64,000 bases of DNA from Brevibacillus humidisoli (GTDB lineage Bacteria > Bacillota > Bacilli > Brevibacillales > Brevibacillaceae). Positions 4,645 through 36,644 of the stretch are shown piece by piece. A program made the translations under genes and the position numbers. Numbering within the stretch: the first letter of the stretch is position 1; each line of letters begins with the position of its first letter. The notes under the pieces were generated by a model, which was not told the origin of the DNA, made no database searches, and saw only the letters and a program-made list of their open reading frames with translations. The stretch is from contig NZ_CP087263.1 of NCBI RefSeq assembly GCF_020923435.1, forward strand, positions 3,243,970 to 3,307,969. The letters run 5' to 3'.

Positions 4645-6012
4645 CTACTCCTTGCTCTGGTTGGCTTTGTCCTGCTCCTTCTGCATTTGTTCGGCGACCT
4701 GCTGAGGCGTCTTCACCTTTCCGATCAACTCTTGCAGGGCGGTTTCCGTCGCCAGTTTGACCGACGGCTGAACAATCGCGTCGTACGCTTTCCAGGAGCT
4801 GCTCGAATCGTTGATCGCCTGGATCACTTCGGCCAGCAGCGGATCGGCCCCTGACGTGTCGGACAGTTTGGTCGACGGCAGCAGGCGGTCTTCCACCAGG
4901 AAGCGACGGGTGACGTCTTCCGAGAAGTATTCCTGAATGAAGGCGTACACCATCTCTTTCTGTTCGTCAGTTAAGTCGCTGGAGAACCCAAAGCCATTGG
5001 AGTAACCGGCGTTGATCGAATTCTGATCCCCTTTTCCGCCGTCAATCGCCGGAAAGCGGAAGAAGCCGATGCTGCCTTTGAGGTCGCCAGCTTCGTCACT
5101 GCTGAAGCGGGTGGCGTCCCAACTGCCGGTGTAGACCATCGCCGCCTCCCCTTTCAGGAACCGTGCCCCCTGATCGGAGTAGGGCAGGCCCAGTGCCCCT
5201 TTGGTGAAGAAGTCATTGTCTCCGAGATAGGCGAAATCTTCAAACGCTTTGACTGTTTCCGGATCGGTCCACTTGCGCTCGCCGGTAACCAAGCCTTCGA
5301 TCCCGGCAATCCCGGCGTTTCGTTCCCAGATGACATTGAACAGCATCGCATTGACCCAGCCGTCTTTGGCCGCCAGCGCAATCGGTGTCTTGCCGGCTGC
5401 TTTTACCTTGTTGCCGAGATCGATCAGTTCATCCCAAGTCTTCGGAATGCTCAGGTTCAACTCTTCAAACATTTTTTTGTTGTAAAAGAGCCCTTCCGCG
5501 TATCCGCCGATCGGCAGACCGTAGACTCGTCCGTCCACCGTAAACTCTTCCAGGCTGACGAACCTGTCCTCCAGTCCCGACTCTTTGAGGAAGTCGGTCA
5601 GATCGAGCAGACGCCCCGCTTTGACGTAGAGCTTGGTATCCGCCCCGCCAAACATCTCAAAGATCTTCGGCGGGTTGCCGGCCGCCATCTCCGCTTTCAG
5701 CTTCTGGTCGCGGTTGACGACTTCATCGACACCCTCTACCTCAAACTTCAATCCCGGATGCTTCTGCTCCAGTGATTTGAGCACGTCCATCATGATTTCC
5801 AGCCGCTTCTTGCTCGTTTCTTTTATCTGGGTATGGCGAAAAGAGAGCACCACTTCTTTTGCAGCACTGTCACTGGTACCGCCGCCTGCCGCCTCTCCAC
5901 CACCGCCGTTGCTCGCCGACGGGTGGGAATTCGTCTCGGCCCCGCCACAAGCAGCCAGTGCGATGACGAGCAGCATCAGCAGGAGACGAAACAATCTACT
6001 GGTCTTTTTCAT
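4645..6012 (-). CDS. Carbohydrate ABC transporter substrate-binding lipoprotein
   Basis: This 455-residue family 1 extracellular binding protein is the first gene of the importer/two-component operon. The signal peptide ends in a lipobox (VIALAACGG), so the mature protein is anchored through Cys near residue 22. A Gly/Ser-rich linker follows, then the two-lobed binding fold, with typical blocks such as GGYAEGLFYNKKMFEELNL and AAMVYTGSWD. It captures a sugar or oligosaccharide outside the cell and hands it to the two permeases. The sugar itself cannot be assigned. Confidence 0.94.
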   Translation of the reverse strand: MKKTSRLFRLLLMLLVIALAACGGAETNSHPSASNGGGGEAAGGGTSDSAAKEVVLSFRHTQIKETSKKRLEIMMDVLKSLEQKHPGLKFEVEGVDEVVNRDQKLKAEMAAGNPPKIFEMFGGADTKLYVKAGRLLDLTDFLKESGLEDRFVSLEEFTVDGRVYGLPIGGYAEGLFYNKKMFEELNLSIPKTWDELIDLGNKVKAAGKTPIALAAKDGWVNAMLFNVIWERNAGIAGIEGLVTGERKWTDPETVKAFEDFAYLGDNDFFTKGALGLPYSDQGARFLKGEAAMVYTGSWDATRFSSDEAGDLKGSIGFFRFPAIDGGKGDQNSINAGYSNGFGFSSDLTDEQKEMVYAFIQEYFSEDVTRRFLVEDRLLPSTKLSDTSGADPLLAEVIQAINDSSSSWKAYDAIVQPSVKLATETALQELIGKVKTPQQVAEQMQKEQDKANQSKE

Positions 6013-6030
6013 CTAGTCCCCCTCTTTCTA

Positions 6031-6060
6031 ATGGAATCGGTTTCATTTGTGTTCATTATA
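6031..6060 (-). promoter_or_regulatory. Promoter -10 with cre site for the sugar importer
   Basis: On the minus strand a perfect TATAAT (6060-6055) is followed after eight bases by ATGAAACCGATTCCAT (6046-6031), which fits the catabolite-responsive-element pattern WTGNAANCGNWNNCW. No convincing -35 was found. A cre at the transcription start is the classical position for CcpA repression, so the importer is probably shut down when preferred sugars are present. This is inferred from motif match only. Confidence 0.65.
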
Positions 6061-6233
6061 AAAGTGGAGGGATTTTCCGGGTAAGTCGAAATATCTCAAA
6101 TGGAGGGGGAGAATTGTCTAGCCTGGGGGCGGGCGGGGGTGGCTGGCGTTGGGGTGGAAGGGAATGGTTTTCGAGAGAGGGATTTCTGAAAGGGCGGGAT
6201 GCGGATGGATTGGATCGGGGAGGGGGTTTGTGC
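6061..6233. other. G-rich intergenic stretch, no gene seen
   Basis: This lies between the importer promoter and the distal end of CRISPR array 1. It is strongly G-rich on the plus strand around 6120-6230. I see no start with a ribosome site, no RNA gene and no clear terminator. Confidence 0.5.
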
Positions 6234-6603
6234 TTGTAGAATCCTTATAGGTACGATATAAACCGACCCAATCGAGGCAGCCAAGCGCATTTGTGCGAGC
6301 TAGTTTCAATTCCTCATAGGTACGATACAAACTTGAATATTACATTGTTTTTCTCGAAGACTTCTTCGTTTCAATTCCTCATAGGTACGATACAAACGCC
6401 TGACCGCGTTGGTGATCTTCTCCAGATGCTCCAAGTGTTTCAATTCCTCATAGGTACGATACAAACAGGTACGTCCGCGAATTGTGCCAGCGGTATGAGG
6501 AGAAAGTTTCAATTCCTCATAGGTACGATACAAACAAATCTAAAATCCTATTGACTAATTTAAAAATATCATAGTTTCAATTCCTCATAGGTACGATACA
6601 AAC
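6234..6603 (-). CRISPR. CRISPR array 1 (5 perfect repeats plus 1 degenerate)
   Basis: Perfect 30-bp repeats lie at 6303-6332, 6368-6397, 6437-6466, 6506-6535 and 6574-6603, with 35-39 bp unique spacers. A decayed repeat at 6234-6263 keeps its right half but has lost the left. Decay on the left marks the leader-distal end, so the leader is on the right and the array is read on the minus strand. In that orientation the repeat starts GTTTGTATCG and ends ATTGAAAC, the typical 8-nt 5' crRNA handle of type I-B/III repeats. No cas gene lies nearby. Confidence 0.97.
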
Positions 6604-6794
6604 CCCAACAATAACCATAATATCAACATTCTATCTTTACCACTATTCTCCCGCAAGAGGGAAAAACGAAACAAAGATAAGTCGATTTACATCCCATTCC
6701 CATCGATTATCTCACAATACCTGCAGTTTCCTCGTTTTTTCCTTTTGTCGTCGATCCCCCGGGTTTTATACGCTACTGGGGGTCGACGACAAAA
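6604..6794 (-). promoter_or_regulatory. CRISPR leader 1 with conserved long hairpin
   Basis: AT-rich leader to the right of array 1. At 6743-6794 it holds an inverted repeat (outer arms TTTTGTCGTCGA and TCGACGACAAAA) with an inner C-rich/G-rich stem and a loop carrying AAAACC. The same structure occurs at 10997-11044 beyond array 2. Blocks TGCAGGTA and GGTTATT are also shared between the two leaders on the minus strand. It could be a transcription start region, a protein site for adaptation, or a terminator insulating the array from the upstream DinB gene. Confidence 0.75.
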
Positions 6795-6865
6795 TGATCA
6801 AGCGCTGCTCCGGTCAATATCGACTCCCGCAAACAGTGCATGCAGTCAAACTTTCTCGCACGCGG

Positions 6866-7396
6866 TCATCCCTTTTTGTTCAAGATCCCTAAGTATTCTT
6901 TCCAAGGCCCAACATCCACCCTGTACCTCTCGGCCATGACCCGCACGATCTGAGCCATATGCGTGAAATCGTGAACCACCCACGTAGAAATCAGTTCTCT
7001 CACTTTCACTGCACCAAATGCAGGGTGTGAACCTGTCAATTCCAGATGCACAGCAGGATCTACGAGCGCCTTCAGTCTGGTTATATTTTCTGCTCTCACC
7101 GTTTTAAACTCTTGCAGCTTTTCTTCAATCGTCGTTTCGGACTTTTGATTCAAGTGGGAAAACCGATCAAATGGGGGAAAAGGTTTGTTTTCCCCTTCCT
7201 GAAGAATTGTTTCCAATCGCGGGATCCAGTTATGCTTCTCAGCCTCGATGAAGTGTTCAATCACTTCCGTGGCATTCCAGGTTCCTTCGCCTTCATTGCA
7301 TTGCAACCATCCGTCAGACAAGCCGGATAAAAAATGCTCCAATGATTGTGGGGTGCGCTCCAGAACCTCAATCGCTTCTTTCATATCAAAGTTCAT
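6866..7396 (-). CDS. DinB superfamily protein
   Basis: This 176-residue protein of the DinB/YfiT four-helix-bundle superfamily has the metal-site histidines in [13 protein letters not shown] (about residue 48) and HDFTHMAQI (about residues 149-153). Members include bacillithiol-dependent S-transferases and uncharacterised damage-inducible proteins. Which reaction this one performs cannot be told. Start ATG at 7396 has a ribosome site AAGGAGCA. The gene points toward the leader of array 1 and stops 70 bases before its hairpin; a second DinB-type gene has the same position relative to array 2. Confidence 0.85.
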
Positions 7397-7559
7397 ATGA
7401 CTGCTCCTTCCTATAATTTATCGCAAGCAACTCTTTACACAAAGCACCCTGCAACAAGCTCTTGCACAACCTGCAGCCCCTATGGTCTGCCTAGCGTTGT
7501 TCATCATAGCGCCGGTTAGGTGGTTGGCGCCAACGCACTGTCGGTTGCGGCACATTTGT

Positions 7560-8279
7560 TCAGTCGCAGTTTTCCAACGCTGTCAAAATCCGATCCGGAC
7601 GGACAAGCAACGGGTTTCGCAAACTCGCCTTGCGGATCATGCCCTCGGCAACAAAATCTTTCAATTGTTCGGTTACGGTTTCCCGAATGCTCCCGGCCAT
7701 ACTGGCTAACTCCTGATGGGTCAGTTTGATCTCTAACTGAACCCACCCTTCTCTAGATTCCTTTTCATCATGAATCGCTTGTTCATTCCCAAACTTCTGA
7801 CACAGCTTGTGCAACAAATAAAGGAGTCTTTTTCTTACGCTTCCATACGCCATCAGTTCGAGCATTTCCTCGATTTCTTTTAAACGTAAGGAAACCAGCT
7901 CAATCAATCTTAGTCCCAGTTCCGGCTTTGCGGTGATGATCGTTTCGAATTGGTTTTTGTCGATCGTACAAATGATCGAGTCCACTATCGTTTCTGCATA
8001 CAGATTTTCCGATCCTGTCGTAAAAGAGCCTACTTCACCGAAAAGATGTCCATCTCCTAAAATGTCAACTGTTAACTCCTTCCCCCCTTTCGATATCCGG
8101 TACAGACGAACCATTCCTGATTTCACAAAAAACAAGCGCTTTTGGGGCATGTGCGGAGAGGCCACGATCGTTTTTCTGGTAACGGTGTTGGCCGGGGTAA
8201 CAGGTGCGAGAGATTCTAATTGTTCCAGATCCAAGTCCTTGAATAAGTTGATCCGCGATAAATATTTTATTTTGTCCAA
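7560..8279 (-). CDS. Crp/Fnr family transcriptional regulator
   Basis: This 239-residue protein has an N-terminal cyclic-nucleotide-binding-type beta barrel (about residues 10-125), a dimerisation helix rich in Leu/Glu, and a C-terminal winged helix with recognition region LTHQELASMAGSIRETV (about residues 185-202). No N-terminal Cys cluster of the FNR iron-sulfur type is visible, so an oxygen-sensing cluster is not supported. It begins with TTG, preceded at good spacing by GGAGGG. It is divergent from the DoxX gene at 8394, which it may control. Confidence 0.9.
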   Translation of the reverse strand: MDKIKYLSRINLFKDLDLEQLESLAPVTPANTVTRKTIVASPHMPQKRLFFVKSGMVRLYRISKGGKELTVDILGDGHLFGEVGSFTTGSENLYAETIVDSIICTIDKNQFETIITAKPELGLRLIELVSLRLKEIEEMLELMAYGSVRKRLLYLLHKLCQKFGNEQAIHDEKESREGWVQLEIKLTHQELASMAGSIRETVTEQLKDFVAEGMIRKASLRNPLLVRPDRILTALENCD

Positions 8280-8393
8280 TCAGGGCCCTCCTGACAGTCA
8301 CTTTGTAGCCCAGCCTACATTCATGATGGCAATCCCACTATATACTGTACTAGAAAAGGGACCCTGCTGAACATCTGAAAGGAGAGTGTGTGT

Positions 8394-8741
8394 TTGGATA
8401 CGCTCGTGTTTATCAGTCAAATCATCTTGATTGCGATGTTTGCGTTCTTAGCCGGTATGAAGTTTCTCGGGACAAAAGCGACCATCCAGCATTGGAATGA
8501 CTATCGGTATCCGCTCTGGTTTATGTATCTAACCGCTGCTCTTGAGGTTATGGGCATGATGGGGGTATTGGCGGGGATCTGGTATCCTGTTCTTTTGAGA
8601 TACGCTGCGGCTCTGCTTGTACTGCTCATGCTTGGAGCGATCCACGCGCATCTGTTCAGGGCCAGACATAAACCGGTTATGGCGATCAATGCATTGCTGA
8701 TGTTAGTATTGTCCGTGTTTCTTATTGTTGTTCAACTGTAA
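8394..8741 (+). CDS. DoxX-like small membrane protein
   Basis: This protein of about 115 residues has four predicted transmembrane helices and the DoxX-like pattern FLAGMKFLG...HWNDYRYP, followed by a helix AALEVMGMMGVLAG. DoxX-like proteins are poorly characterised membrane proteins, some linked to redox or thiol stress. I prefer TTG at 8394, nine bases after AGGAG (8380-8384); GTG at 8388 in the same frame is only three bases from it. It is divergent from the Crp/Fnr gene, suggesting shared control. Confidence 0.8.
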   Translation: MDTLVFISQIILIAMFAFLAGMKFLGTKATIQHWNDYRYPLWFMYLTAALEVMGMMGVLAGIWYPVLLRYAAALLVLLMLGAIHAHLFRARHKPVMAINALLMLVLSVFLIVVQL

Positions 8742-8907
8742 AAAAGGTTGCTGGTTGTGGGCGCGGACTTGGCTAGCTGCTGCGAATGGCTCTGGAGAGA
8801 GAAGCTATACATCATCTATATGCATTTGAAACCATCGATTTGAGTCTTTCTACATGCACCGTGTGCAGGCATATCACTGCTAATTACGTTTTCTATTGGT
8901 TTCTGAT

Positions 8908-8934
8908 AAAACCTTCTTGAATGGAGGTTTTTTT
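8908..8934 (+). terminator. Rho-independent terminator after the DoxX gene
   Basis: An inverted repeat with arms AAAACCTTC and GGAGGTTTT (one mismatch) runs into a T tract on the plus strand. It lies 170 bases past the DoxX stop and just before the distal end of CRISPR array 2. The rest of 8742-9015 shows no gene. Confidence 0.55.
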
Positions 8935-9015
8935 GCATGAATGGGGTAGGGAGATTCAATGAAAGGCAACAGAATGAGTGAAATCGCAGGTTTTTTTTAT
9001 ATAGAGTCCGGTTCG

Positions 9016-10876
9016 GTTTCAATCTCCTCATAGGTACTAAACAAACCCGATGGTTGCTGCCGAGATACATGGATTTCCATGTGGAGTTTCAATTCCTCAT
9101 AGGTACGATACAAACATGTGAACCTGTGCTTCTGCCCGTACTTCCTTGGTGTCGTTTCAATTCCTCATAGGTACGATACAAACACATCGGGCACAGCCCA
9201 ACATACCGCAACGTGAGGGGTTTCAATTCCTCATAGGTACGATACAAACCATCAGCCGCCAAGTGGCCGGAACTACGCGATGAACCAAGTTTCAATTCCT
9301 CATAGGTACGATACAAACGATTTTATCTTCCCTTCAACTTTGATCTTAGATAAATAGTTTCAATTCCTCATAGGTACGATACAAACTTTCGGAAAGCAGC
9401 ACCTCGCAGCCTTGTTTTCTCAGGTTTCAATTCCTCATAGGTACGATACAAACTGGAGCAACTCCACTGCGTGCAGTGCAACCGGTTGTTTGGTTTCAAT
9501 TCCTCGTAGGTACGATACAAACTGTGTTCCATCCGTCGCTGTACCAACGGGAGTTTGAGTTTCAATTCCTCATAGGTACGATACAAACCATCCTCATGTG
9601 CGGAGACTCAACAAACAAGCAGGATGGTTTCAATTCCTCATAGGTACGATACAAACCGCGACAAACTGGCCGGGGAATACGTGGACTTTCGAGGGTTTCA
9701 ATTCCTCATAGGTACGATACAAACTGGACGACTCTGGAGTCGGTGGCGGTGTCACGGACCGTCGTTTCAATTCCTCATAGGTACGATACAAACTCGAGTG
9801 GAATCGCCATTTTTCCGTCGTTCGTGACGCGCAGTTTCAATTCCTCATAGGTACGATACAAACGTTGGAGTGGACGACGATGAACGAGAGTCCAACTGGT
9901 TTCAATTCCTCATAGGTACGATACAAACAAAAAAAACTTTTGCTGCCTGCGCCCCAGCAAAACGGTTTCAATTCCTCATAGGTACGATACAAACTTGTTC
10001 ATGCTACGTGGAGTGCTGAACATATTCCGATGAGTTTCAATTCCTCATAGGTACGATACAAACATCTATCTGAGTGCGCTGTTTGCAGCGTAGTAGCAGT
10101 TTCAATTCCTCATAGGTACGATACAAACTCGGCTGTACAACCTAAGTTCTGCCTTTCCGGGATACCTAGTTTCAATTCCTCATAGGTACGATACAAACCG
10201 AGGTGCTGAACACTCTATTCACACGAATAGTGGAAAGGTTTCAATTCCTCATAGGTACGATACAAACAGTATATTCTACCAAAGTTAACGCTGGCTATCT
10301 ATTGTTTCAATTCCTCATAGGTACGATACAAACCTGCGAAACTGCTCTATCAGCAGATCGGGTTGTTAACGGAGTTTCAATTCCTCATAGGTACGATACA
10401 AACGGGAGAATTGTTGTCCTATCCATTCAGAAGGGGGGGTCTGTTTCAATTCCTCATAGGTACGATACAAACAAGCTCCAATTCCACATCTACCCTAGTA
10501 CGAGCAGGAGGGTTTCAATTCCTCATAGGTACGATACAAACCTGCATCCCTAGTGAAACGAGATACTCTTTTATGACGTGTTTCAATTCCTCATAGGTAC
10601 GATACAAACGATGCTGCCCAAAGTCTCCATGATGCCAGCAATGTGTTTCAATTCCTCATAGGTACGATACAAACGCGGAATAAATCGTCGTCCGACATAG
10701 CCGTGTATTGTTTCAATTCCTCATAGGTACGATACAAACCTTCGCCTCCATTGTAATAGCTTTGATACCGCCAAAAGTGTTTCAATTCCTCATAGGTACG
10801 ATACAAACACCAGCAGGGAGGGATGATGGATGAGGACTGAAGCGCTGTTTCAATTCCTCATAGGTACGATACAAAC
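9016..10876 (-). CRISPR. CRISPR array 2 (28 repeats, 27 spacers)
   Basis: Counted repeat starts: 9016, 9086, 9154, 9220, 9289, 9357, 9424, 9493, 9559, 9627, 9695, 9764, 9834, 9899, 9965, 10034, 10099, 10169, 10238, 10304, 10374, 10443, 10512, 10580, 10645, 10710, 10779 and 10847. All are the same 30-bp repeat as array 1, except the first (9016-9046, 31 bp with an inserted C and changes near its right end) and the one at 9493 (A to G). Spacers are 35-40 bp and all differ. The degenerate copy again lies at the left, so the leader is on the right and transcription is on the minus strand. Confidence 0.98.
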
Positions 10877-11044
10877 CCAAAAAACCCCTGCCGTAATAAC
10901 CTTTCTTAAAAATACACCATCTTACCAAAAAACTCCATACCTACCTGCAAACTTCACTTCCCTCCTTCTCCCACAACACTTTTGCCAAAAAAGCATTTGT
11001 CGTCGATCCCCAGGGTTTTCTACACTACTGGAGGTCGACGACAA
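10877..11044 (-). promoter_or_regulatory. CRISPR leader 2 with conserved long hairpin
   Basis: This is the AT-rich leader of array 2. A 48-bp imperfect palindrome at 10997-11044 has perfect 10-bp outer arms TTGTCGTCGA/TCGACGACAA, a C-A mismatch, an inner six-pair stem and a loop with AAAACC. It matches the element in leader 1 in sequence, structure and distance from the first repeat (about 120-140 bases). No gene lies between this element and the DinB-like stop at 11164. Confidence 0.75.
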
Positions 11045-11163
11045 CATTATCAGCAGTCTTTTACATAATCAAGAGAAGCCCGGATTCTCCGATGACAGGG
11101 AAAGTGCGAGCCAGGATCTAGCCCAACCTCGCTCACCATCGACTCCCTGTCATCAAGGCGATC

Positions 11164-11803: not shown

Positions 11804-12622
11804 TTGCATTCACATGCGGAAATACCGAGAGGCATCTTAAACGCAAGCGCAGCGGAGAACAAGTTCAGACTTACGTGGTATCCCCCGTCTACCGAGCTTA
11901 GCCTTGTTGTAGAGCGTTACTGGATCGTCGAGTGGGATTTGACGGGACAGGAACCGTATCGCCAGGAGAAGCTTCCCCATCCTTGCGTCAACCTGGTCGT
12001 TGAGAAGGGAAACACCCGAATCTTCGGAGTAGAGCGGGAGAAGACATCTTATCTGCTGCAAGGGAAAGGCAAAGTCTTCGGCATCAAGTTCAAACCAGGC
12101 TCCTTTTACCCCTTTGTCCAAACGCCTGTTTCTACCTTTACTGACGGCTCCCTCAGCATTCGCGAGGTTTTTGGCGTAGACGGCCACTTGCTGGAGCAAG
12201 AGATCCTATCCTCCCCAGACGCGAAAGCAATGGTTCAGCTTGCGGAAAACCTGATCCGTCGAAAACTCCCGGGGATCGACGAGAATGTCAGATTGATTCA
12301 TCAGATTGTTGGCCGAGCCATTGCCGATCCCGAGATGATGAAGGTTGACGATCTCTCCAGAGAATTCGCTGTCCATCCAAGAACATTGCAGCGGCTGTTC
12401 CGTCAATACGTCGGGGTAAGTCCGAAATGGGTCCTGAAACGGTATCGACTGCATGAAGCAGCGAACAGAGTAGAAAGCGGGGAAGTGCCTGATTGGCGCA
12501 AGCTGGCACTGGATCTCGGGTATTATGATCAGTCCCATTTCATCAGGGATTTTAAAAGGATGATTGGTTCTTCTCCACAGGAGTATGCGAGCAGATGCGC
12601 TGGAGGCGCGGGGTACAGCTAA
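11804..12622 (+). CDS. AraC family transcriptional regulator (DUF6597-type N-terminus)
   Basis: This 272-residue protein has an N-terminal effector-like domain (about residues 20-140, with ERYWIVEWDLTGQEP and LPHPCVNLVVEKG typical of DUF6597) and a C-terminal double helix-turn-helix (about 165-265) with the AraC signature LALDLGYYDQSHFIRDFKR. The start is TTG at 11804 after a GGGGGGA block. It probably regulates a nearby stress or adaptive-response gene; the divergent DinB-like gene at 11164 is a candidate target by position. Confidence 0.9.
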   Translation: MHSHAEIPRGILNASAAENKFRLTWYPPSTELSLVVERYWIVEWDLTGQEPYRQEKLPHPCVNLVVEKGNTRIFGVEREKTSYLLQGKGKVFGIKFKPGSFYPFVQTPVSTFTDGSLSIREVFGVDGHLLEQEILSSPDAKAMVQLAENLIRRKLPGIDENVRLIHQIVGRAIADPEMMKVDDLSREFAVHPRTLQRLFRQYVGVSPKWVLKRYRLHEAANRVESGEVPDWRKLALDLGYYDQSHFIRDFKRMIGSSPQEYASRCAGGAGYS

Positions 12623-25586: not shown

Positions 25587-26492
25587 CTACATCCTCTCCG
25601 TCACTTTCTCGCCCATGATCCCCGTCGGCTTTAGCACCAGAATCAGAATCAGCACGGAGAAGGCTACGACATCTTTCCACGATCCACCGATCAAAAACGT
25701 GCCGGCGGTCTCCATCATGCCCAGGAGGAAACCGCCAAGCATCGCGCCCGGGATGCTGCCGATTCCGCCTAGTACGGCCGCCGTGAATGCTTTCAGACCA
25801 ATGATAAAGCCCATCATGAAGTTTACCGTTCCATAGTAGGCGCCCGACATCACACCAGCTCCAGCCGCCAGACTGGCACCGATAAAAAAGGTAAGCCCAA
25901 TCACGCGATGCACATCGATCCCCATCAGGTGGCACGCCGTTTGATCAAGCGCGATAGCGCGCATAGCCTTCCCGTAGATCGTGCGCTGAATGAACAGCTG
26001 CAGACCGTACATTAGCAAGGCCGATATGGCAATCAATGCAGCCTGCGTATACGAGATGTGGGCCCCGAAAATCTCCCAGCCGTCCTGTGGCAGCTGCAGC
26101 GGATAGACCAGAAAGTTGGGACTCCAGACGATCATCGCGCCATTTTCCAGAAACAGGGACACACCAATCGCCGTGATCAAGATGGACAGGCGCGGCGCGA
26201 GAAGCAGGGGACGGTAGGCCAACCTCTCCATCCCCATGCCGATCACGCCAACCAGAAACATCGCCAGTAGAAAAACGACCCCAATCCCCATCAAACCGGC
26301 AGCACCCGTACCGTCACCGGTCAGCCAGGAGAGCAGACTAAACCCAATAAAGGCACCTAGCATGTACAGATCGCCGTGCGCAAAGTTGAGCAGCTTGATG
26401 ATCCCAAACACCATCGTGTAGCCCAAGGCAATCAAGCTGTAAAAGGCACCGACTACCAGACCGTCTACCAGTGTTTGCAGTACTACTTCCAT
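25587..26492 (-). CDS. Branched-chain-type amino acid ABC transporter permease LivH
   Basis: This 301-residue permease has about eight helices and the family blocks YSLIALGYTMVFGIIKLLNF, ALDQTACHLMGIDVHRVI and VLGGIGSIPGAMLGGFLLG. It pairs with LivM to form the channel. It is 56 bases downstream of the binding-protein gene. Confidence 0.93.
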   Translation of the reverse strand: MEVVLQTLVDGLVVGAFYSLIALGYTMVFGIIKLLNFAHGDLYMLGAFIGFSLLSWLTGDGTGAAGLMGIGVVFLLAMFLVGVIGMGMERLAYRPLLLAPRLSILITAIGVSLFLENGAMIVWSPNFLVYPLQLPQDGWEIFGAHISYTQAALIAISALLMYGLQLFIQRTIYGKAMRAIALDQTACHLMGIDVHRVIGLTFFIGASLAAGAGVMSGAYYGTVNFMMGFIIGLKAFTAAVLGGIGSIPGAMLGGFLLGMMETAGTFLIGGSWKDVVAFSVLILILVLKPTGIMGEKVTERM

Positions 26493-26548
26493 ACCTTATC
26501 GATCCCCTCCGCCTGATGACTTGTCAGGTGTCTTTGCGTCGAAGCAGC

Positions 26549-27718
26549 TCATTTGGCCAGCTTAAATGTTCCCAACTCCACCTTCAGGACGGCAAAGTTG
26601 GACGTATCCAAGGTGTTTTGCTCATTAAAGGTGATGGTCTGTCCAAGTGCCTGATATCCTTTGGTCTCTTTGAGGGCTTGGCGAATCGCTTCCTGATCCG
26701 CCGAACCAGCCCGCTGTATGGCGTCCGCCAGCAGGTTGACACCGTTGTAGGTCAAAGCGGAGAATGGGCCTGGCGCCAACCCGTACGTTTTCTTGTACTC
26801 GTCCACGAATGCCTCGGCACCTTCAATAAACTCCGCTGTTGGGGTAGCTGAGATCAGCACACCCTCTGCGTTTTCCGGTCCGGCGATCTCAATCAGATCT
26901 TCACTGAAACTGCCGTCTCCAACGATAAACATACCGGGTACCTCTTTCTGGCGGAACTGTTTGACCAACAGTCCGCCTGCGGCGTAATAGCCGGTAAAGT
27001 AGACAGCGTCCGGCTCCAGTGATTTCAGCTTGGTCAGGAGCGCACTGAAGTCTTTCTCTTCCGGATTGATCGCCTCAAATGCGATGACGCTGCCACCCGC
27101 CTGCTCCACAGCCGCTTTGGCCGAATCAGCCAGGTCTTTGCTGTAGGCGGAATTGTCGTGAATCAGGGCAATCTTTTTCGCGTTCTTCTCGATCAGATAG
27201 GTTACCGCTGTCTTGGCCTGATCGGGAACCAGACCATTGATCAAAAACAGCGTATCGTAGCCTTGAGCCGGCAGCTTGGAAGAGTTGGCTGCGGTCACCA
27301 CCATGGGAATTCCAGCGTTCTGAAAGACGCCAGAAGCAGGCAAGGTAGAGCCGGAACAATAGCCCCCGACCACTGCCGAGACGTTTTGTGAGGCCAGCTT
27401 GTTGGCAGCGCTGGTCGCCATCTGCGGATCACAGCCATCGTCGGCCACTTCCACCTTTAGCTGCTTGCCAAGCACGCCGCCTGATTCGTTGATCTTGCCC
27501 ACAGCCAGTTCGACCGCATTCAGCATGTCTTTGCCGTCCGTCGCATTGTTGCCGGTGACCGGTCCAAGGAACCCGATCACAATCTCATCACCTCCACCAG
27601 CTGTCCCGCTCTCTCCCCCTCCTGCTGAATCTGTCGGCTGCGCCGAGTTGGCACACCCGCCGAGCAGCAGTGCGAATAACAAACATCCATATAAGGCCTT
27701 GCGCAGAAGCATTTTCAT
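26549..27718 (-). CDS. Amino-acid-binding lipoprotein, LivK/Leu-Ile-Val type
   Basis: This 389-residue periplasmic-binding-type protein of the type I fold has a lipobox LLLGGCANS near residue 21, so the mature form is lipid-anchored, and characteristic blocks IVIGFLGPVTGNNATDG and VVGGYCSGSTLPASGVFQ. It is the first gene of the importer operon. ATG at 27718 has GGGGG at good spacing; the TTG three codons earlier is less likely. The ligand is inferred to be hydroxyproline or proline from the shared sigma-54 control. Confidence 0.92.
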   Translation of the reverse strand: MKMLLRKALYGCLLFALLLGGCANSAQPTDSAGGGESGTAGGGDEIVIGFLGPVTGNNATDGKDMLNAVELAVGKINESGGVLGKQLKVEVADDGCDPQMATSAANKLASQNVSAVVGGYCSGSTLPASGVFQNAGIPMVVTAANSSKLPAQGYDTLFLINGLVPDQAKTAVTYLIEKNAKKIALIHDNSAYSKDLADSAKAAVEQAGGSVIAFEAINPEEKDFSALLTKLKSLEPDAVYFTGYYAAGGLLVKQFRQKEVPGMFIVGDGSFSEDLIEIAGPENAEGVLISATPTAEFIEGAEAFVDEYKKTYGLAPGPFSALTYNGVNLLADAIQRAGSADQEAIRQALKETKGYQALGQTITFNEQNTLDTSNFAVLKVELGTFKLAK

Positions 27719-27756
27719 GTGAATCAACCCCCTTTTGTGTTGTAATGTTCAGAAAA

Positions 27757-27773
27757 AGCAATCTGCGTGCCAA
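27757..27773 (-). promoter_or_regulatory. Sigma-54 promoter of the liv-type importer operon
   Basis: The minus strand reads TTGGCACGCAGATTGCT, a nearly ideal match to the -24/-12 consensus including the full GGCACG block. The predicted start is about 28 bases before the ATG of the binding protein. Confidence 0.88.
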
Positions 27774-27859
27774 CCGATTTCCTCCATAAAATGCTGCACA
27801 ACTCGTCCAAACCGTTCAGAAACGTAAACAATGAAGACAAAAAATGTGACAGAAAAATT

Positions 27860-27869
27860 ATACATGTAT
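27860..27869. promoter_or_regulatory. Candidate shared activator site between divergent operons
   Basis: The palindrome ATACATGTAT lies in ATTATACATGTATGAAT, with TGTAT and ATACA half-sites like those at 21322-21358. It is roughly central: about 90 bases from the leftward sigma-54 promoter and 110 from the rightward one. One bound activator could serve both. Confidence 0.45.
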
Positions 27870-27977
27870 GAATATTTGGACACATGTTCCCCAAACCATT
27901 ATCAGTCCTCTTGCTACCGCACACCAGCCACCATTCTTTTTCTAATGCAGGCGCCATTTGCCTAGAAGAGAAGCGAC

Positions 27978-27994
27978 TCGGCACGTTTGTTGCA
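27978..27994 (+). promoter_or_regulatory. Sigma-54 promoter of the dehydrogenase-subunit operon
   Basis: TCGGCACGTTTGTTGCA on the plus strand has GG and GC 12 bases apart and the GGCACG core. The predicted start is about 26 bases before the ATG at 28031. Confidence 0.85.
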
Positions 27995-28030
27995 TGAAAG
28001 ACTTCAGAGAAAAAGAGAGGAGAGTGGGAG

Positions 28031-28420
28031 ATGGAGCCGCAAACGACAATCGTCTGCCGATGCGAAGAAGTTACACTGGAGACGCTGCTTTCAACCGTGA
28101 AAAGCTACCAGTGCTCTTCACGCGAATTAAAACTGAGGACGCGGGCAGGGATGGGTGTCTGTGGCGGTCGCACCTGCCGCCCTCTGATCGAGGCGATCCG
28201 CGAGCAGGTGACGGGGCGAGCGAGCAGCCATCCGATACCGCTTGGCTATCAACCGCCGATCCGTCCCGTCTGCTTCGGCTTTCTGGGGCAGCACTCAGAG
28301 AACGCCCCTGCCTCAGCCGAGCATGGCGACAGAGAGCATCAAGCTACAGATGACACGGGTTCCAACGTATCAACCGGTCCTAATCTGTCAACCAGTTCCA
28401 ATCTATCAACCGGTCTTTAG
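28031..28420 (+). CDS. BFD-type [2Fe-2S] protein, D-hydroxyproline dehydrogenase subunit
   Basis: This 129-residue protein has an N-terminal BFD domain with cluster ligands in VCRCEE (CxC) and GVCGGRTCRP (CxxxxC), the pattern of the bacterioferritin-associated ferredoxin fold. The last 20 or so residues are a Ser/Thr/Asn repeat (STGPNLSTSSNLSTG) encoded by a short tandem DNA repeat and are probably disordered. In related enzymes the BFD domain is part of a multi-subunit opine or D-hydroxyproline dehydrogenase and carries electrons between flavin sites. First gene behind the rightward sigma-54 promoter. Confidence 0.85.
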   Translation: MEPQTTIVCRCEEVTLETLLSTVKSYQCSSRELKLRTRAGMGVCGGRTCRPLIEAIREQVTGRASSHPIPLGYQPPIRPVCFGFLGQHSENAPASAEHGDREHQATDDTGSNVSTGPNLSTSSNLSTGL

Positions 28421-28431
28421 GGGGGAGACGA

Positions 28432-28776
28432 ATGAATCAAACTGGCCGTATTGAATATCACCCGATCCTTGGAGCAAATCCGGCGAGCGAATCGGTATCG
28501 TTTCGCTTTGATGATCGTCCCTTGACCGGCCGAAAAGGGGAAACCGTGGCAGCCGCTCTCTTGGCCAACGGAATCCGTACGCTGCGCCGACACGAGGAGA
28601 CAGGAGCGCCGCGCGGCATCTACTGCAATATTGGACACTGTATGGAGTGCCGGGTCACGATTAACGGAATCACAGGTCTCCGGGCTTGTCTGACATTGGT
28701 AGAAGAGGGGATGGCAGTTGCGTCTGGCCACCCCCTGCCCACCCCTTTCCGCCAGCAAGGAGGGGAGAGTGGATGA
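28432..28776 (+). CDS. 2Fe-2S ferredoxin-like subunit of the dehydrogenase
   Basis: This 114-residue protein of the Fer2_4 (HcnA/SoxA-N) type has a plant-ferredoxin-like cluster with Cys in GIYCNIGHCMECRV and a later Cys in GLRACLT. The FDDRPLTGRKGETVAAALLA block is typical of small subunits of hydrogen-cyanide synthase, opine oxidase and D-hydroxyproline dehydrogenase. It overlaps the next gene by four bases (ATGA), so the two are translated as a unit. Confidence 0.9.
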   Translation: MNQTGRIEYHPILGANPASESVSFRFDDRPLTGRKGETVAAALLANGIRTLRRHEETGAPRGIYCNIGHCMECRVTINGITGLRACLTLVEEGMAVASGHPLPTPFRQQGGESG

Positions 28777-30041
28777 GCAGCAAAAGTTTGCCCGACACGG
28801 CGGATGTCCTGATCGTCGGTGCCGGTCCAGCCGGCCTTAGCGCCGCGATCACGTGTGCCGAGCACGGTCTTGGCGTCATCGCTGTGGATGAATATGTAAA
28901 GCCAGGTGGACGACTGCTCGGTCAATTGCACCAGGAACCGGACGGCCACTGGTGGAACGGGATCACGGAAGCGGAGCGACTGTTGGATCAAGCAGCCCAT
29001 CTGGGCGTATCGATCGTCTGCGGCGTTTCCGTCTATCACGTTGAGCGGATCGGGGAGGAATGGCTGGTGTCGACAAGCGAAGGTGCGGTAAGGGCTGCGG
29101 CACTGCTGTTAGCCACCGGAGCGACAGAAACAGGAGCACCTATCCCCGGCTGGACCCTTCCTGGGGTCATGTCGATTGGAGCGGCCCAGGTCATGACCAA
29201 CGTCCAGCGCGTCCGCGTTGGTCATCGGGGAGTGGTCATCGGGCTGAACATCTTGTCCATGGCGATTACCCGTGAACTGCAGGTAGCCGGTATTGACGTC
29301 AACCGCGTCGTCCTGCCGGTGGCCAGCCCCATCAACCACAAAGCTTCCCACCCACAGTTGGTGCTGGAATCACTGCTGCAGGCCGCCCACCTCGCTCCGT
29401 CTCCTTTTATCAGATGGGGCAGCAGATGTTTGACCACAGATTGGCTAAAACGTCTCGCTGTGCGATGTTATCCCAGACGGGGAGTATCAATGTGGGGGAT
29501 TCCTGTGCAGCTGCGAACCGCAGCTGCGGAAATCGTCGGACAGGAAAAAGTGGAAGCGGTCCGTCTGATCGATGTCAGCCCGGACGGTCTGCCGCTTCCG
29601 GGAAGCGAGCGAGAGGTTGCTTGTGACTTTGTCTGTATCGCAGGGGGGCTTTCTCCGCTGGCGGAACTAGCTGCGGTCGCCGGATGTCCGTTCGCCTATG
29701 TCCCGGAACTGGGCGGTCACGTTCCCTTGCATAACGAACGGATGCAGACTCCGTTGAAAGGACTGTACGTGGCCGGCAATATCACCGGTATTGAAAGCGC
29801 CAAGGTGGCGATGGCCCAGGGGACGGTTGCCGGCCTGTCTATCGCTGACGAACGAGGGCGTCTCGGTGAACCGGCGAAGCTGCAGCAAGCCGTGCAGCAT
29901 GTGACAGAGGTGCGGCGGCAGGCCATCATCCAGTTTCACCCGGCTATCGAGCAGGGACGCTCAACCGTAGTTCAGTTGTTTGAGAAACATCTTGCCGGCT
30001 CTGCTTCTGCTGAACACGTACAGCAGCAAAAAGAGGCCTGA
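28773..30041 (+). CDS. FAD/NAD(P)-dependent oxidoreductase subunit of D-hydroxyproline dehydrogenase
   Basis: This 422-residue flavoprotein has motif VLIVGAGPAGLSAAIT, a second dinucleotide region around GHRGVVIGLN, and a C-terminal GLYVAGNITGIESAKVAM. It matches HcnB/OoxA/LhpE-type subunits. Together with the two small iron-sulfur proteins and the DAO-type subunit at 19909 it would make the full complex that oxidises cis-4-hydroxy-D-proline. ATG 28773 overlaps the previous stop and has AAGGAGGGGAG upstream. Its TGA stop lies inside a palindrome duplicated at 34485. Confidence 0.9.
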   Translation: MSSKSLPDTADVLIVGAGPAGLSAAITCAEHGLGVIAVDEYVKPGGRLLGQLHQEPDGHWWNGITEAERLLDQAAHLGVSIVCGVSVYHVERIGEEWLVSTSEGAVRAAALLLATGATETGAPIPGWTLPGVMSIGAAQVMTNVQRVRVGHRGVVIGLNILSMAITRELQVAGIDVNRVVLPVASPINHKASHPQLVLESLLQAAHLAPSPFIRWGSRCLTTDWLKRLAVRCYPRRGVSMWGIPVQLRTAAAEIVGQEKVEAVRLIDVSPDGLPLPGSEREVACDFVCIAGGLSPLAELAAVAGCPFAYVPELGGHVPLHNERMQTPLKGLYVAGNITGIESAKVAMAQGTVAGLSIADERGRLGEPAKLQQAVQHVTEVRRQAIIQFHPAIEQGRSTVVQLFEKHLAGSASAEHVQQQKEA

Positions 30042-30055
30042 TTCAGGCCTCTCAG
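30032..30055 (+). terminator. Palindromic terminator containing the stop codon
   Basis: AGAGGCCTGATTCAGGCCTCT is nearly perfectly palindromic and holds the TGA of the oxidoreductase gene (30039-30041). The 24-bp stretch is repeated in exact inverted form at 34485-34508, at the other end of the IS-flanked block. Confidence 0.8.
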
Positions 30056-31491
30056 ATTGCTGACAAACCCCCTCTCTGCCAGAGCAGAAGTGGGGGTTTG
30101 TCGTGAAACATGCAAAAAACTAAGGTGCCCGTAAGGGCAAATCGCCCTCCATTCCCTTTATTCCAGAGCCAATTGGCCAGCTTTTTCAGATTCATAGCAG
30201 CAAAAGCGAGCATCGCCTGCATTGTCACTTTTTTCAATCCACGCAAAGTGGTCCAACGCAAACCATGCTTTTCCTTTAAATCAGCAAATACACGCTCAAT
30301 GGTTTCCTTTCGGCGTGTATACAGCCGTTTATTCACTTCTGTATGTCTCAGATGTTCCACTTCTTCCAGATAGTCTGCCCATATATGGCGACTGATACGT
30401 TTTACAGCCTCACGGCTTTCCGTACATTGGAAGCGAAGGGGACAATGGCTACATATCTCAGAATCAGAACGGTACATGCGGTACCCTTCTCGGGTAGTCG
30501 TTTCGTAGGACAAAACCTGTCCGGCAGGACAGATAGAACAATCGAAATATTCATCATACACATAGTCGTGTTTGCGGAAAAAACCTTTCTTCGTGTGAGA
30601 GCGGGTATAGGGCATAACAGGACGAACGCCTTCGTCCAAGAGATATTTGCTTATGTATGGGGTTTTATATCCGGCATCTACCGCTACGGCATTCGGCTTC
30701 CCCACGTTTTCAATCGCTTGTTCAAACACATTGGTAAACACTTGGCTGTCATGGATGTTGGCGGCTGTAACGACCGCGCTCACGACAAAGCCATGTTCGT
30801 CACTTGCGGCATGGAACGAGTAAGCAAATGTCTGCTCTTTCTCGTTTTTGACAAACCATCCGCTGTCGGGGTCAGTCGTGCTCTGCTTCACCTCCTTCCA
30901 CTTTGTATCCGACTTTTTTGGCAACGGCTTTTTTCCATGTTCGATGCGGTCTTGATTCAGTTCATCGTGCAGCTGCTGCTGGTACTTCTTTTGCTCTTCC
31001 TGAACCCGCTGCTTGCTGTACTTTCTTTTGTTGGCATGGGCCTTGACGTGGGTGGAATCGATGTAGAGGGCAGAAGGATCAACAAAGCCATGACGACATG
31101 CTTCTTCGAGAATGCGAGTAAAAATTTGTTCAAACAAGTCCGTACCTTGAAAACGGCGGACATAGTTTTTTCCGAATGTGGTGAAGTGAGGGATTGGTTG
31201 GGTAAAATCGTATCCCAAAAACCAACGATAAGCGACATTGGTTTCGATTTCTTTAATCGTTTGGCGCATGGAGCGAATGCCGAACAGATACTGAATAAAT
31301 ACCATTTTGATGAGTACAACGGGGTCGATACTGGGTCTGCCGTTGTCCGGAGAATACCGATCTTTCACCAAATCGTAGATGAAGGAAAAATCAATGGCTT
31401 TTTCGATTTTCCGAACCAAGTGATCACGAGGAACCAATTCGTCTAGCGAAACAACCGATACTTGATAACGGCCTTCGCCCTGTTGTTTCAT
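30052..31491 (-). CDS. IS1182-family transposase (copy 1)
   Basis: This transposase of about 479 residues is of the IS1182/DDE type: N-terminal DUF772-like region (FSFIYDLVKDRYSPDNGRP), catalytic Asp in LYIDSTHVKAH and AVDAGYKTPY, a Cys cluster (CSICPAGQ, CSHCPLRFQC) and the C-terminal Glu region KETIERVFADLKEKHG. I prefer ATG 31491 with GAGGTG six bases upstream. The frame has no stop inside the element; it reads out through the left IS end and stops in the flanking hairpin region. Confidence 0.93.
   Translation of the reverse strand: MKQQGEGRYQVSVVSLDELVPRDHLVRKIEKAIDFSFIYDLVKDRYSPDNGRPSIDPVVLIKMVFIQYLFGIRSMRQTIKEIETNVAYRWFLGYDFTQPIPHFTTFGKNYVRRFQGTDLFEQIFTRILEEACRHGFVDPSALYIDSTHVKAHANKRKYSKQRVQEEQKKYQQQLHDELNQDRIEHGKKPLPKKSDTKWKEVKQSTTDPDSGWFVKNEKEQTFAYSFHAASDEHGFVVSAVVTAANIHDSQVFTNVFEQAIENVGKPNAVAVDAGYKTPYISKYLLDEGVRPVMPYTRSHTKKGFFRKHDYVYDEYFDCSICPAGQVLSYETTTREGYRMYRSDSEICSHCPLRFQCTESREAVKRISRHIWADYLEEVEHLRHTEVNKRLYTRRKETIERVFADLKEKHGLRWTTLRGLKKVTMQAMLAFAAMNLKKLANWLWNKGNGGRFALTGTLVFCMFHDKPPLLLWQRGGLSAI
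30062..30102. terminator. Hairpin beside the left end of IS copy 1
   Basis: An 11-bp perfect stem GACAAACCCCC/GGGGGTTTGTC with a loop of about 19 bases. It could end transcripts in either direction. It forms the last codons of the transposase reading frame of copy 1. Confidence 0.6.
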
Positions 31492-31583
31492 ACATGACAC
31501 CTCTTGGCAATTATTTTCCACGTACATTATTCTACAAAAAACGTGTAGACCTTGTACCTTACGGTACTTTGTCTACACGCTGA
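30115..31583 (-). mobile_element. IS1182-like insertion sequence, copy 1
   Basis: Limits were set by comparing both copies: sequence identity starts at AAAAAC (30115) and ends at CACGCTGA (31583), about 1.47 kb. The right end carries a near-palindrome of about 38 bases (arms CGTGTAGAC/GTCTACACG at 31541-31579), the left end a small hairpin TGCCC-GTAA-GGGCA. No ordinary direct target duplication was seen. Exact ends are uncertain by a few bases. Confidence 0.85.
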
Positions 31584-31616
31584 AAAAAGGTAGCCAACGC
31601 CAACGCCACCTTTTTT
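31583..31616. terminator. Hairpin next to the right end of IS copy 1
   Basis: Arms AAAAAAGGT and ACCTTTTTT enclose a GC-rich loop of about 16 bases. It abuts the IS end, so both outer and inner IS borders lie at stem-loops. Confidence 0.65.
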
Positions 31617-31782
31617 GTTGTCGCTTTTCAAAGCATGACGCAGTCGTCCACTGATTGCAGTTATATTACCATTTACATGCTTCAATGCGAACTTGCGGCA
31701 TCGGCTGCTTATATCTTCCGTCGCGTTTGTAAAATATAATTTACAAGCACCTATTAAGTTCCAATATTGAGTAGGAGTTCTG

Positions 31783-32037
31783 TTAAGTTAGAAAGTAAAT
31801 GGCTAAAGCGATTACGTATAGATAGGCTAATCGGATATTCCATTTTTCACATAGTCTTTGCACCCAGCCAGAAATCCAATTTTTGGATATTTTGACCATG
31901 AGAAATAAAATTACCGCTCCGATTGTAGTCGTAACAAGTTCATGATGGGAAAAGTTGATCAGTGGCTGAATTTTAAATAAAAGTAACAAGGAGACGAAGA
32001 ACAAAAAGCTAAAATATTGCTCTCTGTTTTTATTCAT
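31783..32037 (-). CDS. Small membrane protein in IS-flanked cargo
   Basis: An 84-residue protein with two or three hydrophobic segments (QYFSFLFFVSLLLLFKI near the start, a central helix TTTIGAVILFLMV and a C-terminal helix YLYVIALAIYFL). I do not recognise the family. GGAGGTG lies seven bases before the ATG, so it is likely expressed. Base composition is AT-rich compared with the host. By position after a secreted-protein gene it could be an immunity or export partner, but this is only a guess. Confidence 0.6.
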   Translation of the reverse strand: MNKNREQYFSFLFFVSLLLLFKIQPLINFSHHELVTTTIGAVILFLMVKISKNWISGWVQRLCEKWNIRLAYLYVIALAIYFLT

Positions 32038-32050
32038 AACTTACACCTCC

Positions 32051-32091
32051 AAAATAAACATATAGGGGGAAGCCCCCTATATGTTTATTTT
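32051..32091 (-). terminator. Strong terminator between the two cargo genes
   Basis: A perfect 19-bp inverted repeat with a three-base loop: the arms begin AAAATAAACATATA and end TATATGTTTATTTT. It starts at the stop of the secreted-protein gene and would end its transcript. Confidence 0.9.
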
Positions 32092-32710
32092 ACCAATATC
32101 TCCGGTCTGTTTCATAGTACTGTACGTCTAAAGGTTTTTTATAGCTATCGTCTTCATAGTGAACGACCGTTTCATAGTAGTAGGTACATTCATCGTCAGA
32201 GTCCTCAACCTTCCATCCCCAAGCCCCTACATAAGTATCTCCCATAGCATCATCTACCCAGCCAGAAAGTCGTATTGCTGTCCAATTCACTAAAAAACTA
32301 TCAGTAACTTTGCTAGGCAACTTTTTTAATAGATAGGCAACTATCGCTTTTGCAACTTCTCTTTCCATACCATTATCATAGTGTTTATATATAGGGCCAA
32401 TTATGACTTCAGCACCACCTCCCCCTGGATCATTTATATTTGGTTTAACTACCTTATTTTTTTGACCAGTTTCCAACAATATACCTTGATAAAGTTGTTC
32501 TAATCTTTTTTCAGAAAGCTTCTGATTACCTGTGAATTTGATCCCTTTGAAGGTGTAGGAATATGTCTGTTCATTCTGAGCTTGTTTTTCTTCTAGTGTT
32601 TGTACTTGTGAAGTTTCTGATTCTGAAGAAGCTGCTGCAAGTGCCAAGGACGGGGTAACGAGTGAAATTGTTGTCACGAGTGATAACACACTAAATAAGA
32701 ATTTTCTCAA
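32090..32710 (-). CDS. Secreted protein of unknown family in IS-flanked cargo
   Basis: This 206-residue protein has a clear Sec signal peptide (MRKFLFSVLSLVTTI...SLALAAA), a Glu/Gln-rich linker, and a C-terminal half rich in Trp, Tyr and Asp (VGAWGWKVEDSDDECTYYYE). I do not recognise the family. TTG at 32710 is chosen because GGGAGGAG precedes it and it places the signal peptide at the N-terminus; the ATG at 32746 would add 12 residues and embed the ribosome site. A perfect TATAAT lies at 32750-32745. It could be a small extracellular toxin or bacteriocin precursor. Confidence 0.65.
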   Translation of the reverse strand: MRKFLFSVLSLVTTISLVTPSLALAAASSESETSQVQTLEEKQAQNEQTYSYTFKGIKFTGNQKLSEKRLEQLYQGILLETGQKNKVVKPNINDPGGGGAEVIIGPIYKHYDNGMEREVAKAIVAYLLKKLPSKVTDSFLVNWTAIRLSGWVDDAMGDTYVGAWGWKVEDSDDECTYYYETVVHYEDDSYKKPLDVQYYETDRRYW

Positions 32711-33012
32711 AGGTATCTCCTCCCATTTTTGATTTACAATTCCCATTATAAACCCTTTTTTCCATTTTGTGTATAATGTTTTTGGTTTATGGTGTACTTT
32801 GTGCGGGAAGGATAACCTACATACCCATATGCATAATGTTTAAGAGTAAGAACTTATATTACATTCGGTCGAATTCAATGGTAACCGGTTGTAAACATCC
32901 TGACAGATGCTGATTCGATTACTGCCTTTGGTAGTCGTCGCTCAAAACTGCCGATAAGACAAACTACCATTGGATTGATGCTAGAGTAACATTTCATTCC
33001 ATTTAATACTAT
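32711..33012. other. Cargo promoter region and IS flank, no gene seen
   Basis: It holds the likely -10 of the secreted-protein gene and AT-rich sequence up to the left end of IS copy 2. It encodes the divergent C-terminal tail of the copy 2 transposase frame (32875-33012), not an independent gene. Confidence 0.5.
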
Positions 33013-34395: not shown

Positions 34396-34488
34396 ACATG
34401 ACACCTCTTGGCAATTATTTTCCACATACATTATTCTACAAAAAAACGTGTAGACCTTGTACCTTGCGGTACTTTGTCTACACGCTGA
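33013..34488 (-). mobile_element. IS1182-like insertion sequence, copy 2
   Basis: About 1.48 kb, in the same orientation as copy 1, differing by a 6-base insertion near the transposase start, one extra A in the A run at the right end and a few substitutions. With copy 1 it encloses 1.4 kb of AT-rich cargo and forms a composite-transposon-like block. Its right end abuts the palindrome carrying the cutC stop. Confidence 0.85.
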
Positions 34489-36590: not shown

Positions 36591-36644
36591 ATATTTTTTT
36601 GTTTCAGAACATGCTGGTTTTTTGGCCTAGAAAGGAAGTTGTTC

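Follow-up and report, generated by a model that had tools for sequence, protein, structure and literature searches.

A 46-bp palindromic element at the distal end of CRISPR leaders in one type I-B branch, a candidate DNA site for spacer adaptation

Leader DNA takes part in adaptation in several described CRISPR (clustered regularly interspaced short palindromic repeats) systems. In type I-E and I-F adaptation, leader motifs act together with IHF-induced folding, which brings upstream DNA to the integrase at the leader-repeat junction (PMC12259127). In the type I-A system of Sulfolobus islandicus, a distal leader motif is needed for efficient adaptation, and a stem-loop DNA is bound by Cas1 (PMC9456107). 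For a thermophilic type I-B host, Parageobacillus thermoglucosidasius, array expansion at the leader ends has been assayed by PCR and Cas1-2 and Cas4 have been deleted (PMC10551041). The subject of this report is a palindromic element of 46 bp found in the leaders of two CRISPR arrays in a 64,000-nucleotide stretch of the Brevibacillus humidisoli genome (contig NZ_CP087263.1), referred to below as the window; it lies at the far end of the leaders of one type I-B branch, where it may serve the adaptation machinery as a DNA site. The I-E and I-F leaders share with this locus DNA motifs and inverted repeats upstream of the array, and leader folding is described there; unlike those leaders, the present ones carry one 46-bp palindrome, mostly 96-146 bp upstream, in a type I-B setting with Cas4-Cas1-Cas2 (PMC12259127). 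S. islandicus resembles it in having both a distal leader motif and a stem-loop DNA, but in that system it is Csa3a that binds the distal motif, and the stem-loop is leader-proximal (PMC9456107). The palindrome was not found described in the literature as screened by title and start of abstract. The leader-motif catalogues Alkhnbashi 2016 and Buyukyoruk 2025, which from their titles reportedly collect conserved CRISPR leader motifs, may include it.

An earlier reading of the window, the original prediction, had placed two hairpins in the leaders of arrays 1 and 2, with outer arms TTGTCGTCGA/TCGACGACAA and an AAAACC core common to both; the hairpins, arms and core were all recovered there (coordinates in Table 1). 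Rfam CRISPR-DR2 matches number five in array 1 and 27 in array 2, with the same repeat, GTTTGTATCGTACCTATGAGGAATTGAAAC, on the minus strand in both. Because degenerate repeats form the left ends of the two arrays, both leaders lie on the right. The two copies align over 57 bp with 89% identity and differ at 4 of the 46 positions, one of which falls within the four inner pairs (C-G to T.G). Outside the element the leaders align poorly; little is alike in them except the element and the junction with the repeat. The window contains the exact arm pattern twice, whereas 100 shuffles do not contain it at all. A 23-nt stretch at window positions 12263-12285, inside an open reading frame (ORF) that looks AraC-like by eye, is 83% complementary to one half of the element, probably by chance.

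Beyond the window, the element is found mostly beside arrays. A DNA search of 59 genomes (that of the window and 58 relatives) gave matches in 11, and the exact arms with a free gap of 22-36 nt were found in at least 120 stretches of GTDB contigs and in 53 of IMG/VR. Total length separates signal from noise: among the GTDB matches listed, to which the following counts refer, 57 are exactly 46 nt long and 73 have other lengths. A repeat lies within 400 bp in 46 of the 57 by a fuzzier count and in 39 by a strict script; a few of the 46 show a single repeat only. The core points to the array side in 45 of the 46 by the rule of the script, and in the last, L140 (L denotes a locus and G a genome of the comparison sets), by eye, the rule having mis-set its orientation. 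As for the remaining 11, seven have at most 160 bp of sequence beyond the element, L100 is by eye a chance match, L137 resembles a decayed locus like L034, and L033 and L047 have no array in the available 261 and 221 bp. Matches of other lengths are near an array by script in 2 of 73 cases, one of which (L105) is a coding repeat. L111, with 47 nt, looks real by eye, yet it was not scored near an array. Copies scattered away from a CRISPR context, which would have spoken against the original prediction, were thus seldom seen among these matches, whether judged by exact length or by exact arms.

Most copies measure 46 nt, and lengths of 45, 47 and 49 also occur. At E 0.001, a covariance model with nine pairs matches 60 of the 398 genomes searched in the class, up to 15 times per genome. 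Among the matches listed, the element lies on contigs of Geobacillus, Anoxybacillus, Paenibacillus, Thermoanaerobacter, Caldicoprobacter and Caldatribacterium and on metagenome-assembled genomes named Sulfobacillus, Chloroflexota and WOR-3. Other phyla are represented by label, though the labels of metagenome-assembled genomes may be wrong. In the genome of the window, a repeat search yielded four arrays, all with the element, and a single isolated match resembling the repeat; the element itself led to a fifth array, whose repeat is a variant. On Paludifilum contigs (L082, L039, L260; G359:C172 at about 25693-36965), several short arrays follow one another, and every one of them has a leader element of its own.

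The distribution follows one repeat class and one Cas1 clade. The window genome carries the operon cas6-cas8-cas7-cas5-cas3-cas4-cas1-cas2, type I-B by NCBIfam; its Cas1 scores 462.8 bits with the I-B model (cut-off 304.1), and the I-B models of Cas5, Cas7 and Cas8 are matched below their cut-offs. In many loci the element comes directly after cas2, including between cas2 and the array. Cas1 of type I-B is over its cut-off in 57 of the 398 genomes, 45 of them in common with the 60 element genomes. Leaders that lie beside cas1 and have a repeat close to CCTATGAGGAATTGAAAC usually carry the element, and none of 14 leaders with the other repeat class, GTTTTATCTGAACGTAGTGGGATATAAAG, does. In a tree of Cas1, all 34 hairpin-linked rows fall into one clade of 37 (support 100/99), and three changes suffice to account for the label against a shuffled mean of 20.2 (0 of 500 shuffles as low). 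A row was labelled by a covariance-model match at most 2.5 kb downstream of cas1 or, where there was no match or the locus was uncovered, by at most three arm mismatches. Under this rule G111 (L254, E 0.0022, 46 nt) was counted as having the element, and G271 (E 0.0021), G157 (E 0.022) and G155 (E 1.7e-5, 48 nt) were treated separately as variants; where to draw this line was our choice. The long-branch rows G206, G114 and G177 and the rows shorter than 290 amino acids (G375, G367, G143b) were left out.

The sister type I-B branch is without the element, except for the variants in the three genomes outside the clade (G155, G271, G157). Both kinds of cas1 locus, with and without the element, occur within each of G062, G133, G153 and G359, which rules out a host-wide explanation in these genomes. 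The expectation that other leaders with this repeat would share the hairpin holds in the main: it is usually present, and it is absent from a few leaders with a similar repeat (G081, G206), G206 combining such a repeat with a distant Cas1. In G054, the element precedes a cas6-like ORF by about 300 bp, and the operon of this ORF uses the other repeat. Leaders of the sister branch show another inverted pair, roughly TTTGCAGTGAACC and, about 90 bp on, GGTTYACTGCAAAA, which varies between leaders.

The element also keeps clustered distances from the repeat. For the analysis of spacing, 115 leaders were reduced to 107 distinct and 90 non-redundant ones. An earlier distance set used 63 of 81 copies, those with a second repeat confirmed, and left out 18; in it, L004 and L140 were turned array-ward by hand. 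From the copies collected for comparison, L100 had been dropped because it looked like a chance match, and L001 and L012 because they duplicate the window. In the 90 leaders, the element-repeat distances fall into classes of 96-98 (10 leaders), 116-125 (44), 127-136 (13), 141-146 (22) and 153 bp (1), with clusters near 97, 121, 130 and 143 bp. The five arrays of the window genome have 121, 121, 142, 143 and 143 bp. The equal distance that had been claimed for the two window copies was not borne out: the measured values, 142 bp for array 1 and 121 bp for array 2, are two helical turns apart. For the 90 leaders, circular R is 0.47 at a period of 10.5 bp and 0.58 at 11 bp, rising to 0.56 and 0.60 without distances below 100 bp; these statistics are not probabilities, because the distances share ancestry. 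In a jitter control restricted to distances above 100 bp and one per locus, the observed R was reached in 0 of 20000 trials.

Promoters were predicted in 42 of the 90 leaders by a crude scan with a simple consensus, their -10 boxes lying 19-97 bp from the repeat and 25-113 bp from the element. In these 42, R is 0.34 (10.5 bp) and 0.43 (11 bp) both from element to predicted -10 box and from -10 box to repeat, against 0.51 and 0.60 from element to repeat. This weaker phasing of the predicted promoters suggests that the element is positioned relative to the repeat and not to the promoter. The leader end is conserved as well: it is rich in T and has GG at the junction, 87 of the 90 leaders having G at -2 and 85 having G at -1. 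Two conserved leader ends with variable DNA between them fit a leader that is folded onto one complex. By its location in leaders, its tie to a Cas1 clade and a repeat class and its clustered distance, the element is, as far as sequence comparison can tell, a CRISPR leader-distal motif.

Within the element, it is the sequence that appears to be conserved. Both window copies fold far better than shuffles (z -6.2 and -6.0 as DNA, -5.5 to -6.6 as RNA; in no case did any of 200 shuffles do as well). The original prediction had further held that the inner stem stays paired despite base changes, which did not withstand comparison: no inner pair is changed on both sides between the window copies, and over 69 aligned copies of 71 distinct ones (those in L059 and L114 were left out), inner-stem double changes are no more frequent than in shuffles (113 and 141 of 500 as high). 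In the same 69 copies the inner-stem covariation score was reached by 95 of 500 shuffles, the percentage paired is 94.9 against 94.4 in shuffles (24 of 500 as high), and the four inner pairs have 9, 14, 12 and 11 unpaired rows. RNAalifold retained the nine outer pairs only and showed a double change in none of them. The outer arms are nearly invariant in these copies. This invariance is partly forced, because loci L021-L193 were chosen by exact arms; 17 of the 18 other loci, from the initial DNA search of relatives, also have them. The array-proximal half, GGGGGATCGACGACA, is the more constant one: among 12 copies with altered arms (at most four arm changes and a consensus-like core; L325 not included), eight are changed in the distal arm only, two in the proximal arm only and two in both, one of the last with a compensated pair. 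The centre, AATMGTGCAAAAACCCC, is conserved and asymmetric. Outside the main family, arms are changed symmetrically around the same core, to TGTCTGTCGA/TCGACAGACA in G155 and, with one G.T pair, to TCTGTGAA/TTTACAGA in G271 and G157. In the main family, then, sequence rather than pairing is conserved, a pattern that, judged from the alignment, resembles a double-stranded DNA recognition site. Hence the prediction of a functional structure in the leader stands as regards a functional element, which is conserved across families, bound to one repeat family and set at clustered distances, and fails in the main family as regards its stated reason, the retention of pairing. Rfam gave no match to the element at gathering score in the whole window; at E up to 1, for which only 10870-11080 was scanned, two weak miRNA matches lay far below their cut-offs. 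The L296 leader of G120 has a stretch recalling the core, AATAGTGTAAAATTAA, with TCGACAGAA nearby, perhaps a decayed variant.

Taken together, position, near-fixed length, restriction to one repeat family and Cas1 clade, clustered repeat distance and the lack of a fixed relation to predicted promoters, all read from sequence, point to a leader-distal DNA site for the Cas4-Cas1-Cas2 adaptation complex of this type I-B branch, or for a partner of it, a reading to which we assign a probability of about 0.5. On this reading, the far end of the leader would hold a double-stranded DNA site recognised by its sequence, composed of palindromic 9-bp half-sites around the asymmetric core, with the array-proximal half the more constant. 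Cas4-Cas1-Cas2, or a protein working with it, would bind the element; the leader would bend and bring the distal element and the junction with the repeat (T-rich, GG|GTT) together on one assembly, which would guide new spacers to the first repeat. What we infer here is which protein binds, that the leader bends and that the element has a role in spacer integration.

Several points weigh against an adaptation site. The 96-98 bp class lies about 25 bp (2.4 turns) from the 121 bp class and does not keep phase at 10.5 bp, the 63 checked copies taken together fit best with a period of 11.6 bp and not 10.5 bp, and the shared ancestry of the distances and the crudeness of the promoter scan, both mentioned above, limit the argument from spacing. 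G081, G104 and G117b belong to the Cas1 clade and have no element beside cas1. The link to this clade does not single out Cas1, because the other cas genes and the repeat travel along with it. Nine element genomes (G002, G058, G071, G075, G087, G101, G213, G287, G303) have no detected Cas1; in five of them (G058, G087, G213, G287, G303) Cas6 is over its cut-off, and in four it is not. Among them, G303 shows 11 matches to the model together with Cas6, with no Cas1 found, and G002 shows five, with neither Cas1 nor Cas6 found. Retention of the element in such genomes would suit a role in expression, a recent loss of cas1 or adaptation in trans. Finally, a run of at least four T within 14 nt after the element occurs in 42 of the 90 leaders, as against 5-23 of 90 for control windows.

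This T-run leads to the possibility that the element is a transcription terminator or insulator, whose hairpin and T-tract would stop transcripts from cas2 or other upstream genes before they reach the array promoter. Stable RNA hairpins with a GC-rich stem, as in intrinsic terminators, the location between cas2 and array and the confinement of the runs to one strand are consistent with it: T enrichment peaks at about +2 to +9, and A-runs follow in 12 of 90 leaders, inside the control range of 8-22. However, 48 of the 90 leaders are without such a run, which is no commoner after cas2, where it would be most needed (10 of 26 copies at most 600 bp after cas1 against 37 of 63 copies with a checked array; the sets overlap and no significance is claimed). 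Unlike intrinsic terminators, moreover, the element has a large loop of about 18-28 nt, near-invariant arms, near-fixed length and a clustered repeat distance, for none of which a terminator has a need, and on three viral contigs the TTTT after the core strand lies on the side away from the array. Termination, alone or in addition to another role, is thus conceivable, since a T-run does follow 42 of 90 copies, though less likely than an adaptation site. A similarly low probability attaches to a dimeric regulator that would bind the element and turn transcription of the array on or off. Such a regulator would be suited by palindromic half-sites that lie upstream of promoter-like sequences, and helical phasing is typical of class I activators too; short-leader variants have, by eye, a -35-like TTTACA within the right arm, and elements persist where Cas6 but no Cas1 was found. 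Against this stand the scatter of the predicted -10 boxes relative to both repeat and element, with their weaker phasing, and the lack of a constant neighbouring regulator gene by eye among the ORF starts of 14 loci, for which no profile search was made. Of the three functions that had originally been proposed, an adaptation site thus fits best, an insulator or terminator is conceivable given the T-runs, and a promoter element fits worst, because promoters predicted by the crude scan lie at scattered distances.

Recognition of one strand as a hairpin, folded as RNA or extruded as a DNA cruciform, is favoured by the folding z-scores near -6 and by the symmetric arm changes of G155, G271 and G157, which leave some small room for a structural role between subfamilies; one-sided arm changes also leave G.T over A.C by 9 to 2 on the leader strand (by eye; p 0.065, with rows that are not independent). 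Inside the main family there is no covariation, compensatory stem changes being confined to one pair in 1 of the 12 divergent copies, and symmetric arm types occur in the three variant genomes. The element also lies upstream of the predicted promoters and is for this reason probably not part of the CRISPR RNA precursor (pre-crRNA). A structure-level element is accordingly quite improbable. Very improbable is a mobile or recombinational palindrome, similar to repetitive extragenic palindromic (REP) or attC sequences, that would spread with leaders and duplicate arrays. Up to 15 model matches in a genome and the leader-array units in a row on Paludifilum contigs would suit it, but exact-length copies among the matches listed are mostly in leaders, the ORF starts of 14 loci show, by eye, no transposase that recurs next to the element, and the window copies share little beyond element and junction, which indicates that whole units are not recent copies.

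Table 1. Coordinates of the leader elements, leaders and arrays in the window, and of related features on other sequences
Feature	Position	Strand	Description
46-bp palindromic leader element, array 1	6746..6791	-	TGTCGTCGA-N28-TCGACGACA; A-rich core reads array-ward
46-bp palindromic leader element, array 2	10998..11043	-	TGTCGTCGA-N28-TCGACGACA
Array 1 leader, element to first repeat, 142 bp	6604..6745	-	ends TTGGG(G) at repeat
Array 2 leader, element to first repeat, 121 bp	10877..10997	-	ends TTTTTTGG at repeat
CRISPR array 1	6234..6603	-	five repeats GTTTGTATCGTACCTATGAGGAATTGAAAC and degenerate distal repeat at about 6234-6263
CRISPR array 2	9016..10876	-	27 Rfam-matched repeats and degenerate distal repeat at about 9016-9045
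pAT1 (L324), Aneurinibacillus thermoaerophilus plasmid	6001-6600		element and six-repeat array
Viral contigs with mini-array, reversed element and TnpB/Cas12f-like gene	L158 3850-5597; L160 33-1560; L187 1-131
Leaders with sister-branch inverted pair			L265, L268, L269, L276, L277, L281, L282, L286, L287, L289, L290, L291, L212

The element is also carried by plasmids and viral contigs. BLAST places it on six plasmid records (four of Geobacillus, one of [Bacillus] caldolyticus and one of Aneurinibacillus). On two of these, inspected over 6 kb on either side, it precedes a six-repeat array, and no gene is named cas in the feature tables, which are incomplete. One of them, pAT1, resembles a phage-plasmid, because baseplate and holin genes are listed; one product bears the name CsxC family protein. 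The element is absent from INPHARED phages at E 0.1. An exact pattern of the core alone gave no match in viral contigs and was too strict, as five viral contigs hold the element. Three IMG/VR contigs (L158, L160 and L187) have it reversed, 53 and 54 bp from the mini-array in L158 and L160, with part of one repeat only in L187. In L158 and L160, a protein scan finds the TnpB model over its cut-off and the Cas12f2 model below; the nearest solved chain for the TnpB/Cas12f-like gene is 8j12, an IS605 OrfB-type protein, followed by entries named Cas12f. A stretch resembling trans-activating CRISPR RNA (tracrRNA) is visible by eye only. The reversed variants in G271 and G157, elements of 44 bp with the core, lie 56 bp from the repeat. 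Tolerance of either orientation, seen in few independent cases, would suit a palindromic binding site.

It is tempting to regard the palindrome as the address tag of a portable module, although this proposal is tentative and rather improbable as it stands. Any array with the element at the right distance, in either orientation, might be fed by the host type I-B Cas4-Cas1-Cas2; phages and plasmids may have taken up such units, so that a virus-borne array could be loaded by its host. The proposal draws on the viral arrangement, in which the reversed element has a Cas12f-like gene and a tracrRNA-like stretch on one side and, on the other, a mini-array with a repeat similar to that of the host family. 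The element links plasmid and viral arrays to the host module, and it offers a marker by which arrays can be oriented and those with a common adaptation module recognised. To our knowledge, Bacillota generally lack IHF, and the element bears on how the integrase finds the leader end outside IHF-using systems; a single recognisable 46-bp site at discrete distances makes this question directly testable in type I-B.

Elsewhere in the window, Rfam identifies tandem T-box leaders at 58301-58570 and 58720-58980 on the minus strand.

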